Assembly: GCA_017515325.1 (NCBI GenBank)
Contig: JAFWGA010000009.1
Span: 1-34,927, forward strand
DNA from: Blautia sp.
GTDB taxonomy: Bacteria; Bacillota; Clostridia; Lachnospirales; Lachnospiraceae
Direction: 5' to 3'
Length of the DNA stretch: 34,927 bases
Positions 29,431 through 34,927 of this stretch are shown here, in pieces (the first letter of the stretch is position 1; the number at the start of each line of letters is the position of its first letter). A model generated the notes under the pieces. The model saw only the letters and a list, made by a program, of their open reading frames with translations, was not told the DNA's origin and did not search any database. A program made the translations under genes and the position numbers.

Positions 29431-30498
29431 CTACAGGATTGCCAGCATCTGATCGAGCAGCCTGATCTGGGTACGGGCTCGGATCAGATTATGCTCCGGA
29501 TAAGCAGTCTTATAATAGACATCGCCCTCCAGGTAATCCGTCAGGAAGCGGAGTGCCTGTTCGCAGGTAATGACCTCTGCTCCGTCAGGAAGAAGAGCTT
29601 CCTCCTCCCTGGTAAGGCTGCCCTCGCATCCTTCCAGATAGCCCTCTCGATATACTTCATACAGATGCCGGTCAAAGCCGACCCTTTTCAGATCCGGCTC
29701 ATCCTCCCGGGCCGTATTGGCCCCGAAACGGATGGCATCCCCGAAATCGGTAACGGAAAAACCGGGCATCACCGTGTCCAGGTCCAGGATACACAAGGCC
29801 TTTCCCGTCTTCACATCCATCATGACATTATTGAGCTTGGTATCATTGTGCGTCACCCGCAGAGGAAGTTTTCCCACTTTGTGGGCATCGTAAAGACGGT
29901 GAGCCAGTTTTTCCATCCCCAGGAGGAAATCCGCCTCCCATCTGCAGGAGGAATACCTGCCCACCGGATCCCTCTCCACTGCCGACGTAAACTGTTCAAA
30001 GCGCACCGGTGTATTGTGGAAATCGGGGATGGTCTCATGCAGGGTCCGGGCCGGATAATCACTGAGCAGCCTCTGGAAGCTGCCAAAAGCGAGAGCGCTT
30101 TGCCGAAAGCTTTCTTCTGATTCTGCCTGCTCATAGCAGACAGCATTCTCAATGAAGCGGTATACCCTCCAGTATTCTCCGCTGTCATCGATGGTGTAGC
30201 CTCTGCCGGATTCCTCCGGAACCAGGCAGAGCACCTCCCTGGTCACATCTCTGCCGGCTTCCTTGTATTTTCCGGTAAGCCAGCTGATGATCCCCGTTAT
30301 ATTTTCCATCACCTGGTCAGGATGATGAAAGACATTCCGATTTATCCTCTGCAGGATAAAAGAGGAAGATTCCGCTTTCTCTCTCTCGCATAGAATGCGG
30401 AAGGTATCGTTGATATGGCCGTTTCCGTAGGGCAGGCATGATATTACCTTCCCCGGCAGGTCAAACCGAGAAAGAATGTCCGTCATCTGCTCCATCAT
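29431..30498 (-). CDS. nahK: N-acetylhexosamine 1-kinase (NahK/LnpB type)
   Basis: 355 residues, close to the 359 of the bifidobacterial enzyme. An aminoglycoside-phosphotransferase-fold kinase that phosphorylates GlcNAc or GalNAc at C1. Motifs: PYGNGHINDTF (23-33), the catalytic loop VTHNDTKLNNVMMD (215-228, Asp219), and ILDLDTVMPG with metal ligands (237-246), then DFGDAIRFGA and DYLEGDVYYKTAYPEHNLIR, all characteristic of NahK. Its start lies 11 bp past the permease stop with AAAGAGGTG between, so it is the last gene of the transporter operon. In bifidobacteria it works with lacto-N-biose phosphorylase, galT and galE; none of these is in the window. Confidence 0.9.
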   Translation of the reverse strand: MMEQMTDILSRFDLPGKVISCLPYGNGHINDTFRILCEREKAESSSFILQRINRNVFHHPDQVMENITGIISWLTGKYKEAGRDVTREVLCLVPEESGRGYTIDDSGEYWRVYRFIENAVCYEQAESEESFRQSALAFGSFQRLLSDYPARTLHETIPDFHNTPVRFEQFTSAVERDPVGRYSSCRWEADFLLGMEKLAHRLYDAHKVGKLPLRVTHNDTKLNNVMMDVKTGKALCILDLDTVMPGFSVTDFGDAIRFGANTAREDEPDLKRVGFDRHLYEVYREGYLEGCEGSLTREEEALLPDGAEVITCEQALRFLTDYLEGDVYYKTAYPEHNLIRARTQIRLLDQMLAIL

Positions 30499-30509
30499 CT
30501 ATCACCTCT

Positions 30510-32102
30510 TTAGCCCTTCACGCCGCCACTGGTCAGTCCTGATGTCAAGTGCTTTTCAATTGCCATAAAAAGAATCACCACCGGTATGGTTGCCAGCAAT
30601 GAGGCGGCAAACAGATACTGCCATTCAATCATATTGAAGGATGAGAATTGGGTAATCCCTACAGTGATGGGTTTATGGGACGAGGTGGAAATCAGCACCG
30701 TAGAGATGGTATATTCATTCCATGCGTTGATAAATACAAAGATCAGGGTCGTCACGATGCCCGGTGCTGCCATAGGGAGAAGGATCCGGGTCAGGGAGCC
30801 AAAGGTGGAACAGCCGTCAATCTTTGCCGCCTGCTCCATTTCCAGGGATATGGCTGAAAAGGTTCCTCTCAGCAGCCAGATGGCGAAGGCCTGGTTAAAG
30901 GCTGCGTTAACAAACACCAGCCCCAGAATACTGTCGTTCAGGCGCAGGGTATTCATCAGCTGCGCGATACCGATCAGCAGAACCACCGGCGAAAACATCT
31001 GGCTCATAATGACGAAGCCCAGGAAAAATTTCTTCCCTTTAAAGTTCATCCTTGCCATGGCAAAGGCAGCGGGGATCCCACAGAGCATGGCAAGAAGAGT
31101 CGCTCCGCCGGCTATGGCCAATGAATTCAACAGATAGCGGGGTACTCCCCGGTTAACTATATCAATAATATTGTTCCATTTCCAGCTGGTGGGAAGAAGA
31201 TGCAGAAAATACATATCCAGAGTCTCAGCATTGGAACGGAATGCCGTGATCAGCATGACATAATAGGGGTACAGGGTAATCACGCAGACGGCAATGACAA
31301 AGGCAAACAAAAATATCCGCAGCATCTTGCTCTTCATGCTGCCATAGCGGATTTGCACTGCTGCCGAAAGAGCAAGCAGGAAAAGCAAAAGCAAGACCCA
31401 GACAAGCGGGCTGTGCTCCATCCTAAGGTTTTTCAGGACGGTTCCCGCCTCCTCTCCCATCTTCCCCTGGAAAAGGAAGCTGTCCAGCAGGGCGTAAAAC
31501 TCCTCCCTGCCCTCTGTCAACAGATCTTGTTCATACAAAGAGAGCCGTCTCCAGAAACAGCGATTATTCAGGAGAATAAATACCGGCACCAGAGTCGTTC
31601 CCAACAAGGAGAAAAAGACCGAAAGGGAACGCAGACCCTTTGATCTCCGATCCAGATATTTGGGAATCAGATCCATCCTGCCAATCAGCCCTGCCCCTGA
31701 CAGGATCAACGACAAGAGCATACAGACCAACATACCCCAAAGAGCCCGGGAGGATGGAAGCCCTGCATAAAGGAAAGATAAAATGCTCTTTGTGAAGGTC
31801 TGCACGACAGAAAAGGCCACCATGGAGGTTACCTCTCCCTTGGAATTGGTTCGTTCCGTCACTGTCTCGCTGATATCCACCAAAAGCCCCTGTGCCCGAA
31901 ACTGATCCGCTTTCGACTCAACCTCCGCCTTGACCTCAAGGTATTTCTCATCTCCTGCGAAGGTATTTCCGGATTTTTTGGTATACACGGAGGCGGAAAA
32001 GCGGTACAGAGGCAAAAGCATGAGCATGATTGACAGCAGGCCGGCCAGAAGAAGGAGAATAAGAGCCATCCTGTTCCTGCCGGCAAGTGTTTTCATTTTC
32101 AT
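30510..32102 (-). CDS. Carbohydrate ABC transporter permease (MalG type) with long N-terminal membrane extension
   Basis: 530 residues from ATG 32102, which overlaps the preceding stop as ATGA and has GGAGGAG just upstream. The last 270 residues form a normal MalG-type permease with the EAA loop EQAAKIDGCSTFGSLTRILLP (about 424-444) for contact with an ATPase. The first 255 residues are additional: one helix (11-33), an extracytoplasmic stretch (34-108) rich in charged residues, then about three more helices (121-140, 159-179, 233-251) with a soluble segment between. Ordinary MalG permeases are about 280 residues. The extension has no recognised domain. No ATPase gene is adjacent, so a shared MsmK-type ATPase is probably used. 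Confidence 0.9.
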   Translation of the reverse strand: MKMKTLAGRNRMALILLLLAGLLSIMLMLLPLYRFSASVYTKKSGNTFAGDEKYLEVKAEVESKADQFRAQGLLVDISETVTERTNSKGEVTSMVAFSVVQTFTKSILSFLYAGLPSSRALWGMLVCMLLSLILSGAGLIGRMDLIPKYLDRRSKGLRSLSVFFSLLGTTLVPVFILLNNRCFWRRLSLYEQDLLTEGREEFYALLDSFLFQGKMGEEAGTVLKNLRMEHSPLVWVLLLLFLLALSAAVQIRYGSMKSKMLRIFLFAFVIAVCVITLYPYYVMLITAFRSNAETLDMYFLHLLPTSWKWNNIIDIVNRGVPRYLLNSLAIAGGATLLAMLCGIPAAFAMARMNFKGKKFFLGFVIMSQMFSPVVLLIGIAQLMNTLRLNDSILGLVFVNAAFNQAFAIWLLRGTFSAISLEMEQAAKIDGCSTFGSLTRILLPMAAPGIVTTLIFVFINAWNEYTISTVLISTSSHKPITVGITQFSSFNMIEWQYLFAASLLATIPVVILFMAIEKHLTSGLTSGGVKG

Positions 32103-32983
32103 AGCTCCTCCTTCCTCATCACGGAAATCATATATACGCCTGCGCACAGACAAAGGATCAGAAATCCAATCACAGAAAGGGCATTGGCCGGGCCTTTTTT
32201 TCTGTCATAGAAATTCAGCATGTAAAGATAGGTGATCATTGTGTCCGTTTTATTGGCCGGGGCTCCCTTTGTCATGGTGTAAACGATGGGGAAAGAGTTG
32301 AAGACATAGATAATATTCAGTACCGTGCTGACAGACAGAGCTGGCCTCACCAAAGGTATCGTTATGGTAAACAGCTTGTCGATAAAGCCGGCTCCGTCGA
32401 CCGTAGCTGCTTCATAGAGGGATTCGTCTATGGACTGGAGTCCGGAAAGCACACAAAAGGCCACAAAAGGGATCGTAACGAAAATTCCCACGGCACATTC
32501 CCAGACAAATTCCACGTGATAGGAAGAACGCCAGTTTATCGCCTCTTTGATGATACCAAGGTTCAGAAGCACATTGTTCAGGCTTCCGTATTCGTATTTG
32601 ATAATGTAATTCCATACCGAGGCCTGGATCACCAGGGATGTAGCCCAGGGAAAAATCAGAATCGAACGCGCCAGCTTTCTTCCGTGAAACTTCTGGTTCA
32701 GTACCATGGCAATGATAAATCCCATCAGTGTGGAAATCCCTACAACAGACAGAACCCACCAGAAGGTATTGGTCAGCACAGTCCGAAAAGCAGGCAGATG
32801 CACAGCGTCAACATAGTTCCGAAAGCCGACAAAACCTCCCACGACCCCGGCCTTGGATATTTCACTGAAGGAGAGCTTAAAAACGATAGCGATCGGAAAC
32901 AAAACAAAAACAGCAATCAGAAGGATACTGGGCAGCATCCATAGGTAGGGAGTCAGGCTGCCCTTTCCCTTTCCTTTATTCAT
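32099..32983 (-). CDS. Carbohydrate ABC transporter permease (MalF type)
   Basis: 294 residues with six predicted membrane helices, the usual size. The EAA motif SLYEAATVDGAGFIDKLFTI sits before the last two helices. It forms the inner-membrane channel with the MalG-type partner, whose start codon overlaps its stop by ATGA. AGGAGGAG lies 8 bp before the ATG. It lies 251 bp downstream of the binding protein gene, from which it is separated by a terminator and a dispersed repeat, so it is probably expressed below the binding protein. Confidence 0.92.
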   Translation of the reverse strand: MNKGKGKGSLTPYLWMLPSILLIAVFVLFPIAIVFKLSFSEISKAGVVGGFVGFRNYVDAVHLPAFRTVLTNTFWWVLSVVGISTLMGFIIAMVLNQKFHGRKLARSILIFPWATSLVIQASVWNYIIKYEYGSLNNVLLNLGIIKEAINWRSSYHVEFVWECAVGIFVTIPFVAFCVLSGLQSIDESLYEAATVDGAGFIDKLFTITIPLVRPALSVSTVLNIIYVFNSFPIVYTMTKGAPANKTDTMITYLYMLNFYDRKKGPANALSVIGFLILCLCAGVYMISVMRKEEL

Positions 32984-33075
32984 GGTTCATTCTCCTCCTC
33001 TCAGACCGTATAGTCTGGTCTGACAAAACGTCTTCGAATGATGTGTGTTGCCTCAAAAGGCAGAACTGCCATATG

Positions 33076-33117
33076 AAAAAAGGCCCGGCAGGTTGGTTTT
33101 CCCGCAATCCTGCCGGG
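33076..33117 (-). terminator. Terminator/attenuator between binding protein and permeases
   Basis: CCCGGCAGG (33084-33092) pairs perfectly with CCTGCCGGG (33109-33117), followed on the minus strand by TTTTTT (33076-33081). Placement inside the operon suggests partial read-through, giving more binding protein than permease. Confidence 0.85.
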
Positions 33118-33136
33118 TTCTGTTTGTATAGGAAAT

Positions 33137-33230
33137 GAACAAACTGCCTGCATTTTGATTCGTTCCCTGCGCCGAATTTTCCGCCGCTGCAAGCGGCATG
33201 ATTCCGCAGTAAATTCGTGCGCAACCGATA
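33137..33230. repeat. Dispersed palindromic repeat, copy B
   Basis: Closely matches copy A at 5396-5485. Its core GCCGCTGCAAGCGGC is a perfect palindrome, flanked by CTGCGCCGAATTT and AAATTCGTGCGCA arms. It begins 5 bp past the binding-protein stop on the minus strand, between the stop and the terminator. Confidence 0.8.
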
Positions 33231-33234
33231 AGCT

Positions 33235-34500
33235 TCAGCCGACCAGCTCTGCCTGAAGGGCATCAAGCTCTGCCTGGATATCCGCTCCCGTGAGAGCATT
33301 CTGCTCCGCCGCGATGACTCCCTGCTTCACCTGATCCCATTCCGCCTTGGCTGCCGGATAGAACTGGCAGCCGCCAAGGACATCCAGCCATGCTTCGAAG
33401 GAAGGATCCGCTTCCACCAAAGATTCCACTGCAGAATTCACAGCCGGGAGGAAGCCTTCCATGCTGACCCAGCCCACATAGTTTTCAGGATCATAGAAGA
33501 ATTTCAGGAAGGCGCCGATGGCTTCATTCCTTGCTTCCTGATCCGGGGCAGACTCATCCTTGAAAGCCATGACACGATCCATTACGCCTACCGAAGAGGC
33601 TGTCTTTCCTTCATTGGCCGGGATGTTTACCGTAACCATGTTGATATCGCCGCCCTTATCTGCCACATAGGTGGGCAGCTGATTGGGAGCGATAACCATG
33701 GCAAGCTTACCTGCCGCAAACATATCCTGAAGATCATAACGGGTCTGGGTGGCCGGATTCGGATTGGTGTATCCGCTGTTGATCAGATCCAATGCGTAAT
33801 TGATGGCCTCAGCGTTCTCCGCTGAGTTGACAGCCCACTCGCCGTTTTCATCCACGAAGCCGCCCCCATTGCCCCAGGTATAATAGGCGAACGCAGCCTG
33901 ACCTTCATCTGTCGTCATGTCAATGCCCCAGGGATAGACCTCCCCATCATAGAAATCAATGATGGCCTGGCAGGCATCCTTCAGCTCAGCCCAGGTGGTG
34001 GGATAATCGATGCCGACCTCCTCAAAGATATCGGCATTGCAGAAAAGAGCCCGGGCGGAGGCCAGATCAGGGACAGCCCAGACGGTATCGTCAATCACGG
34101 ACTGCTCGATGAAGGAGGGGAAGAAATCCTCATACAGCTCCTCCTGACAGTAGTCCTTCACCGGCATCAGAAGGCCCTCCGTGGCATAGTTTGCAAAAAC
34201 GTCAATGTTCAGGATGTCCGGGGCATTGTTGTTGGCAATGCGGGTATCCACCTCGGTATAAACATCATTCCATGAGACGACATCCAGGTTCAGCTTGATC
34301 CCGGGATTCTCTTCTTCAAATTTCGCCACGAAGCTGGTGCCGTCCATCCCGCTGCCCAGGAACCAGTCGTTGGTGTTGGGGCCATATTGGCAGATAATCA
34401 CATCCAGTTCAATGTCGTCCGCCCATGCCGTGACTGCTGTCTGGGCGGTCAGCGAAAAGAGCATTGCCATTGACAGAATACCGCAAAGTATCTTTTTCAT
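33235..34500 (-). CDS. Extracellular solute-binding protein, sugar ABC transporter
   Basis: 421 residues, a family 1 sugar-binding protein by length and pattern (QYGPNTNDWFLGSGMDGTSF, a FEEENPGIKLNLDVVSWNDV block, later YPWGIDMTTDEGQAAF). The signal peptide MKKILCGILSMAMLFSLT... appears to end at AWA|DD (residue 27). There is no lipobox Cys after the hydrophobic core; Cys6 is inside it. Most Gram-positive binding proteins are lipoproteins, so the retention mode is unclear. First gene of the operon with permeases and nahK. Substrate inferred from nahK: an N-acetylhexosamine disaccharide. ATG follows GGAGGAG; strong promoter upstream. Confidence 0.9.
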   Translation of the reverse strand: MKKILCGILSMAMLFSLTAQTAVTAWADDIELDVIICQYGPNTNDWFLGSGMDGTSFVAKFEEENPGIKLNLDVVSWNDVYTEVDTRIANNNAPDILNIDVFANYATEGLLMPVKDYCQEELYEDFFPSFIEQSVIDDTVWAVPDLASARALFCNADIFEEVGIDYPTTWAELKDACQAIIDFYDGEVYPWGIDMTTDEGQAAFAYYTWGNGGGFVDENGEWAVNSAENAEAINYALDLINSGYTNPNPATQTRYDLQDMFAAGKLAMVIAPNQLPTYVADKGGDINMVTVNIPANEGKTASSVGVMDRVMAFKDESAPDQEARNEAIGAFLKFFYDPENYVGWVSMEGFLPAVNSAVESLVEADPSFEAWLDVLGGCQFYPAAKAEWDQVKQGVIAAEQNALTGADIQAELDALQAELVG

Positions 34501-34543
34501 CGTGAACTCCTCCTTTTTCGTTTTGGTTATTATGGATAGATAA

Positions 34544-34572
34544 ATATTACTTCTTTCCTTTTATATTGTCAA
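34544..34572 (-). promoter_or_regulatory. Promoter of the sugar ABC transporter operon
   Basis: Minus strand TTGACA (34567-34572) and TAATAT (34544-34549) with a 17-bp spacer, about 45 bp upstream of the start at 34500. No obvious operator palindrome overlaps it. Confidence 0.8.
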
Positions 34573-34631
34573 CCATTTCTAATCCCATTGCAGTCAAAGC
34601 GCCATATCACACTGTATCAAGTCTGCCGACA

Positions 34632-34660
34632 TTGACTTTACCCCATCCATATGGTAAAAT
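34632..34660 (+). promoter_or_regulatory. Promoter of the structured RNA
   Basis: Plus strand TTGACT (34632-34637) and TAAAAT (34655-34660) with a 17-bp spacer. Predicted transcription start is near 34667. It is divergent from the transporter promoter, about 60 bp away. Confidence 0.75.
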
Positions 34661-34666
34661 CTGACA

Positions 34667-34927
34667 AATATATGATTCAGCAGTCAAAAGTCATCCGACA
34701 CGGCAAGCTTGCTTGCCGATGGAGGAATGACTATATGACTGCCCCCGATATGAGCAAGTAGTGGGGCAGGGGTCCCACGGATTGCGAATATCGGGGAGGA
34801 TTGTGGGTTGCTGCCTGCCAGTGGCAGGCGTTTAGCAACGACCGGTTCTGATGCCCGGTGGGCATCGTTTAGAACCGACCGAGCCGGAGGCGAGACCCGA
34901 CAGGCGAGACCCGACAGGCGAGACCGC
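34667..34927 (+). ncRNA. Ornate structured noncoding RNA (family uncertain; raiA motif a candidate), truncated by window edge
   Basis: Downstream of a good promoter, nearly every base can be placed in helices. Nested stems: 34681-34686 with 34736-34741, 34689-34694 with 34727-34732, and CGGCAAG/CTTGCCG (34701-34718). A 9-bp stem CCCCGATAT (34743-34751) / ATATCGGGG (34788-34796) encloses GTGGG/CCCAC (34761-34778). Two tandem hairpins of the same plan follow: 34807-34839 and 34843-34877, each with a 6-7-bp stem, a GTTT bulge, a 7-bp upper stem and a three-base loop. The stem sequences differ but pairing is preserved. It ends in 14-bp direct repeats. No ORF fits. The size and complexity resemble large bacterial RNAs such as the raiA motif found in Clostridia, but I cannot confirm the family. 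Confidence 0.72.
34888..34925 (+). repeat. 14-bp tandem direct repeat at the right edge
   Basis: AGGCGAGACCCGAC occurs at 34888-34901 and 34902-34915, with a partial third copy at 34916-34925 running to the window end. It lies at the 3' part of the structured RNA. More copies may follow outside the window. Confidence 0.75.

Follow-up and report, generated by a model that had tools for sequence, protein, structure and literature searches.

The window, the whole 34,927-nucleotide stretch of Blautia sp. DNA that was analyzed, ends within a structured element that occupies positions 34673 to 34927 of the plus strand. To the left of the element, positions 29431 to 34500 carry minus-strand genes that by eye resemble those of a sugar ABC transporter (a substrate-binding protein and two permeases), as well as a phosphotransferase-like gene, also named by eye. 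A promoter-like sequence, TTGACT-17-TAAAAT, is found on the plus strand at 34632 to 34660. The clear promoter of the original prediction is thus present as a match to the consensus, but it belongs to the flanking DNA and is not a part of the element. The element is immediately preceded by ATATA (34668 to 34672, plus strand), the left copy of the target duplication expected for a mobile element; the right copy falls past the end of the contig. In the same genome, seven fetched 3' ends from the subfamily of the window copy, on different contigs, run on into ATATA.

The right end of the window is the end of the contig, which cuts the element short before the partner strands of helices P1 and P4; the gene downstream of this copy also lies past the contig. 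Inspection of the sequence to the right, which had been proposed as a check, gave a mixed outcome: the last 141 bases of the window are, by eye, the start of contig C52, and the last 120 are also found at the end of contig C39. The join past the window is therefore ambiguous. Because the sequence at the window's end recurs at these two contig ends, the repeat probably broke the assembly at this point.

The only match at or above the gathering threshold when the whole window was searched with the Rfam covariance models was RF01699, Clostridiales-1, at 34676 to 34852 (70 bits versus a gathering cut-off of 48). Our own covariance model of the element, R1, aligns to 34673 to 34849 with 82.8 bits, and the 3' part of both alignments extends into a nested hairpin module. 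The first bases of the element, TGATTCAGCAGTCAAAA (34673 to 34689, plus strand), are its left terminal inverted repeat and also provide the 5' strands of P1 and P2. The helices of RF01699 that are seen in the window are P2 (34680 to 34685 with 34737 to 34742), P3 (34743 to 34751 with 34788 to 34796), and two inner helices. Within the second part of the P2 arm (34690 to 34731), GTCAT (34690 to 34694) pairs with ATGAC (34727 to 34731) below an apical stem (34701 to 34707 with 34712 to 34718). The P3 arm (34743 to 34796) is formed by CCCCGATAT and ATATCGGGG, with inner GCAA/TTGC and GTGGG/CCCAC pairings and the conserved AUGAG and CGAAU sides, and is followed by the 5' strand of P4, GGATTGT (34798 to 34804). 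All of these features are on the plus strand.

Two tandem hairpins come next on the same strand. Hairpin A (34807 to 34839) has the lower stem GTTGCT/AGCAAC, the upper stem GCCTGCC/GGCAGGC, and the loop AGT; hairpin B (34844 to 34876) has the lower stem GGTTCT/AGAACC, the upper stem GATGCCC/GGGCATC, and the loop GGT. In both, a GTTT bulge separates the stems and GACC comes next. The remainder (34877 to 34927) is a tail, GACCGAGCCGGAGGCGAGACC, plus two CGACAGGCGAGACC repeats, of a type that recurs in other copies. No terminator-like site was found in 34500 to 34927, an interval that ends before the element's 3' end. The minimum free energy of the 261 bases from 34667 to 34927 is -125.7 kcal/mol, compared with a mean of -88.1 (standard deviation 5.05) for 200 dinucleotide shuffles (z -7.4), none of which folded as well. 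These results bear out the original prediction that the structure is not due to chance, that it includes a 9-bp long-range stem with nested stems, which are helices of RF01699, and that two tandem hairpins share one plan while differing in stem sequence, with every pair kept. That prediction also entertained an undescribed class of RNA, and it held that a strong Rfam match would make the RNA known rather than new. The RF01699 match does so.

Clostridiales-1 was listed in the table of a 2010 survey as a probable RNA that is probably not cis-regulatory, found in Clostridiales and the human gut (PMC2864571). In the open literature searched, this was the only paper on topic for the Clostridiales-1 name or accession. 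Its table row and legend for Clostridiales-1 mention neither mobility, operon placement, nor nested hairpins (PMC2864571). The name was not found by a term search in the text of the ModT (raiA motif) paper. The listings of the open literature searched showed no link between Clostridiales-1 and mobility. The mobility, the operon form, and the guest hairpin module extend the Rfam entry, and no report of them was found in the open literature searched.

The genome that contains the window has 22 matches to RF01699, 11 of them above the cut-off, which fall into two subfamilies with many copies cut short. Matches were present in 49 of 64 genomes of the genus, and counts across the 64 ran from 0 to at least 36; these are lower bounds, with up to 36 candidates scored per genome. 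Muricomes intestini DSM 29489 has at least 128 matches to R1, again a lower bound from up to 150 scored candidates. A pattern scan of species genomes returned at least 119 stretches, and most among the matches listed were titled Lachnospiraceae, Butyrivibrio, or Clostridiales. R1 finds nothing in one Lewinellaceae-titled stretch (L358), which is probably a chance pattern match. Among the matches listed, two loci, L293 and L338 (the latter from Anaerosporobacter faecicola), had tandem arrays of three pattern matches spaced 150 to 168 bases apart. Two copies elsewhere (L029 and L030) lie 5' of a substrate-binding-protein gene, right after an apparent terminator that we take to be that of a T-box.

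Within the genus, Clostridiales-1 is carried by a nonautonomous element of about 200 bp with inverted ends and AT-rich target duplications of 5 to 6 bp. Complete copies bear imperfect terminal inverted repeats, of which the window shows only the left. Many genomes share the ends TGATACCAGGGTCAAAAGG ... CTTTTGACCCCAACATC; one subfamily in the window's genome has TGATTCCAGTGCAAAAA ... TTTTTGCAGTATAATC. Among 115 copies with enough flanking sequence, the target duplication reached 5 bp or more in 61 and 6 bp or more in 47, versus about 18 and about 6 expected when the flanks of different copies were paired. In M. intestini 34 of the 39 copies examined had a duplication, at least two of which (L441 and L453) look like chance matches. 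The target site is AT-rich, roughly ATWWTA. Of 40 copies defined strictly, 39 have A as the base preceding the element. Some copies with internal deletions (L150, L142, and L160) retain both ends and the duplication. The window copy likewise has the look of a small mobile DNA element.

For one insertion, in contig C40, matches to the flanks in other genomes of the genus break off before reaching the element from either side, and it is therefore likely that this element is absent from the genomes compared. No base-exact empty site for the insertion was found among the 64 genomes, in which one locus was found with a spacer that is not alignable. When the joined flanks of 113 copies were used as queries for empty sites, only neighboring element copies matched. 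No transposase flanked by the element's ends was found in the fetched loci. One candidate for an autonomous element, C40:164503-167651, was rejected: although its two ends are similar, the open frames that separate them appear by eye to be chromosomal. One long frame in this interval reads, by eye, as a sensor kinase. A scan of the fetched loci gave a single case of ends that face each other, separated by 1,180 bp and lacking a duplication; these belong to two copies of the element (L466). At this M. intestini locus (G070:C17) the two facing copies flank about 0.9 kb in a composite-like arrangement without a target duplication. The window query had no match in phage and plasmid records; an M. 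intestini copy gave partial matches in nine phage records and one plasmid record, none of which covers 80% of the query.

To evaluate base pairing, structure-aware alignments were made of 57 mostly operon-type sequences and 66 mostly mobile-type sequences, the latter including those used to build R1. Pairing was maintained in 92.7% and 94.8% of the cells, respectively. There were 617 and 562 two-sided changes versus 161 and 147 in shuffled alignments and no more than 88 when the structure was slid along the alignment. The comparison among relatives that had been proposed as a check, together with the RF01699 match, strongly supports an element with conserved base pairing. The original prediction is in this respect partly supported; the identities that it proposed are not. 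Unpaired AUGAG facing CGAAU and the apical CUUG were nearly invariant in 49 sequences. In the two alignments G-U pairs outnumbered A-C mismatches 23 to 8 and 61 to 17 at well-aligned pairs and 49 to 33 and 69 to 40 at all pairs, an excess that favors the sense strand. G-U pairs make up only about 1 to 2.5% of pairs, versus 9% in a control set from the same genus, 27 distinct TPP riboswitches with helices set by hand. The G-U to A-C ratio of this control was 39:0 at well-aligned pairs and 44:5 overall, whereas A-C cells are present in Clostridiales-1. In our view the low G-U share tells against a simple account in RNA terms alone, as part of the strict Watson-Crick matching may be maintained at the DNA level, for example, by template switching between the arms or by use of the hairpins in movement.

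Copies in Butyrivibrio and other Lachnospiraceae often lack the inverted ends and lie in sense between the genes of operons, typically at the stop codon of the upstream gene. In counts based on simple open-frame picks, 15 of 20 copies from two Butyrivibrio genomes were in sense between codirectional genes, compared with 8 of 38 in M. intestini (Fisher P = 1.5e-4). Eleven of these 15 start no more than 6 bases from the upstream stop codon and 12 end 18 to 59 bases before the next start, the rest in each case being further away. Within same-direction gaps, Butyrivibrio had 15 sense and 2 antisense copies (P = 0.0012). The corresponding M. intestini counts, 8 sense and 10 antisense, led us to reject a sense bias for the mobile form in that species. 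Beyond the genus, 72 of at least 96 R1 matches were taken, 57 of which had no inverted ends by a crude test; among the 52 such copies with genes on both sides, 31 were in sense between codirectional genes and 7 were antisense (P = 5.8e-5). In a mixed set from the genus the right-hand gene was co-oriented in 72 of 119 copies.

The same gaps are occupied repeatedly. The pheS/pheT gap holds a copy in L280, L288, and L479, the fliE/fliF gap in L281, L290, and L486, and the gap between a glycyl-radical frame (the end of pflB or a GrcA-like frame) and pflA in L305 and L322. Other occupied gaps read, by eye, as purF/purB, rnfA/rnfB, and acetyl-CoA acetyltransferase with hbd or crotonase. Pfam matches, for one example each, were obtained for pheS (PF01409), the tRNA-binding N terminus of a pheT-like frame (PF01588), the glycyl radical domain (PF01228), radical SAM (PF04055), FliE (PF02049), and FliF (PF01514). 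Pfam scored the purF piece below its cut-off and gave no match for the purB piece.

The reading that we favor, with a probability of roughly 70%, is that Clostridiales-1 is a mobile element that serves as a cis-acting RNA in operons and whose P4 loop, in the window copy, hosts a probably mobile hairpin module. Counting against it are the failure to find a transposase in the fetched loci or a base-exact empty site in the searches described, the low share of G-U pairs, and the lack of sense bias of the mobile form in M. intestini. The ends and target duplications suggest that a putative transposase acts on the ends in trans to move the element. When the element lies in sense within a transcript, the RNA would fold and serve as a cis-acting domain, either intercistronic or in a leader, as the sense placement in operons and the stop codon in or beside the P1 strand suggest. 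In the operon form, in which the upstream stop codon is often in or adjoining the P1 strand, the terminating ribosome might open the fold, and this opening might couple translation of the upstream gene to how stable the downstream message is, how it is processed, or how it is translated. The hairpin module may itself be mobile, a smaller unit that colonizes structured repeats through their loops and junctions. The fuller proposal, a mobile riboregulatory domain that spreads as a transposon and works in operons as a translation-sensitive device overlapping the stop codon, while itself hosting an undescribed moving hairpin module, is possible but tentative, and we would sooner doubt it than adopt it. 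If it is correct, mobile elements nest in the loops of a mobile RNA, and the module moves among structured repeats, tRNA neighborhoods, and genes.

The alternative that survives best is a palindromic MITE that functions at the DNA level. According to this explanation the hairpins matter as DNA, in transposase binding or as single strands, or arise through template switching, the RNA fold being incidental. The inverted ends with target duplications, the scarcity of G-U pairs relative to the TPP control, and the indifference of the mobile form to sense in M. intestini all fit such an element. However, placement of the operon form in sense (15:2 and 31:7) and conservation of the apical CUUG and the unpaired motifs are not what it would lead one to expect. 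The excess of G-U over A-C also speaks against it, although a hairpin in the top DNA strand could give the same excess. On balance we regard a DNA-level explanation as unlikely, while giving it real weight.

Considerably less probable is a stand-alone gene for a trans-acting small RNA with its own promoter, an explanation that agrees with the Rfam type of RF01699 (sRNA), with the survey's verdict of a probable RNA that is probably not cis-regulatory in its table (PMC2864571), and with the promoter-like site upstream of the window copy. That site lies outside the element, however, and no terminator-like site accompanies the part of the element within 34500 to 34927, although its 3' end is beyond the window. 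Promoter-like scores upstream of 40 insertions exceeded those of sequence further upstream (P = 0.00025), which we attribute to the AT-rich target preference. They were not above those on the 3' side when it was read inward (P = 0.24), which argues against a promoter for the RNA, and capture of promoters by insertion just downstream of -10 boxes was rejected on the same comparison.

Returning to the favored reading of a mobile, cis-acting RNA with a guest in its P4 loop, the two tandem hairpins of the window copy are guests, a repeated module of about 55 nucleotides. Sister copies C24a and C45a have GTGGGAGCGCGAAGCGCG where module-bearing copies have GTGGG-module-GCGAAGCGCG. Elsewhere the module occupies the P3 loop of other copies or, in other genomes, the P2-P3 or P3-P4 junction. 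The internal covariation that the original prediction saw in the hairpins does point to something that Rfam does not name, which is this repeated module nested in the RNA. It is very improbable that the hairpins are instead a native RNA domain conserved for its function. They do lie within the RNA with all pairs kept, but the hairpin-free C45a and C24a contradict a native domain unless module-free copies are all dead, and the unit also occurs in the P3 loop or junctions of other copies and outside Clostridiales-1. A raiA-type RNA, for which the original prediction's suggestion is the sole argument, has next to no chance of being correct, because RF01699 matches whereas RF03072 gave no match at an E value of up to 1 in 34400 to 34927 and none in the genome of origin, the latter in a search run without a positive control.

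A strict search of the fetched loci for the hairpin plan found 20 distinct instances of the module, 18 of them with exactly 6 plus 7 bp and a triloop. A covariance model of the module, R2, was built from 16 typed rows, one of them composite; its pair counts are biased upward, as 15 of the 16 rows were picked by plan and most passed a perfect-pairing filter. R2 matches hairpin B of the window (34844 to 34897) and 46 of the 64 genomes of the genus, with at least 55 matches in the window's genome and at least 61 in genome G021, both copy numbers being lower bounds with up to 89 candidates scored per genome. REP palindromes, which are partnered by RAYT transposases, and Rickettsia palindromic elements are short repeated hairpins with a conserved tag that occasionally lie inside genes. 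The nested module resembles them and has a tag of its own, the GTTT bulge and GACC. There were no matches to the Y1 transposase family (PF01797) in the genome of origin (87.7% complete), which argues against a RAYT partner.

The nearest known kind that we found for Clostridiales-1 as a whole, judged by description, is the set of scattered repeats bcr1 to bcr18 of the Bacillus cereus group, some of which are MITE-like in untranslated regions or operon gaps and others of which have conserved RNA structure (PMC3446304). As described there, the MITE-like bcr1 to bcr3 and the structured bcr10 and bcr18 are separate families (PMC3446304), whereas in Clostridiales-1 a single fold has both mobile and operon forms. 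MITEs with folded transcripts have been described in a review as short, with inverted ends, target duplications, AT-rich sites, and stable transcript folds (PMC10969869). Clostridiales-1 shares these traits but differs in that its interior is a conserved, covarying fold common to several genera.

An Rfam family without known function thereby gains testable biology in its apparent mobility and in operon gaps that recur across species. M. intestini DSM 29489 is a named isolate with abundant matches, and an effect on expression in operon gaps is measurable. Strong covariation, the usual mark of a functional RNA, is seen here in a transposable palindrome whose G-U pairs are very scarce, so that the extent to which covariation is proof of RNA function can be tested. 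The nested module is a candidate for a new Rfam family.

The module also belongs to a second repeat, which is present in at least 10 copies in the window's genome. Rfam names neither the module nor the second repeat; searches of ten loci of the two gave three weak microRNA matches below the cut-off, all in one locus (L238). The second repeat (L234 to L244; for example, G000:C64:11428, C34:29048, and C55:2985) has inverted ends of its own, GGCACTGTAATTAAATA ... AATTTAATTACAGGGCC. Modules were also seen in coding genes (L506 in G038:C72, L510 in G039:C145, and L548 in G062:C1). In a gene with a PD-(D/E)XK nuclease piece the frame is open through the module. ParA-like genes from two genomes are interrupted by the module at a shared position in the P-loop, and one of these genes has an in-frame stop within the module. 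Among nine loci that were picked for tRNA-like flanks, eight had the module within about 200 bases of a tRNA gene, which in six was tRNA-Arg(ACG). In these six loci, each from a different genome (L502, L503, L504, L255, L264, and L266), the module is about 100 bases or less from the tRNA-Arg(ACG) gene, and beside it the sequence of the tRNA 3' end, GTGCGTTAGAGG, is repeated.
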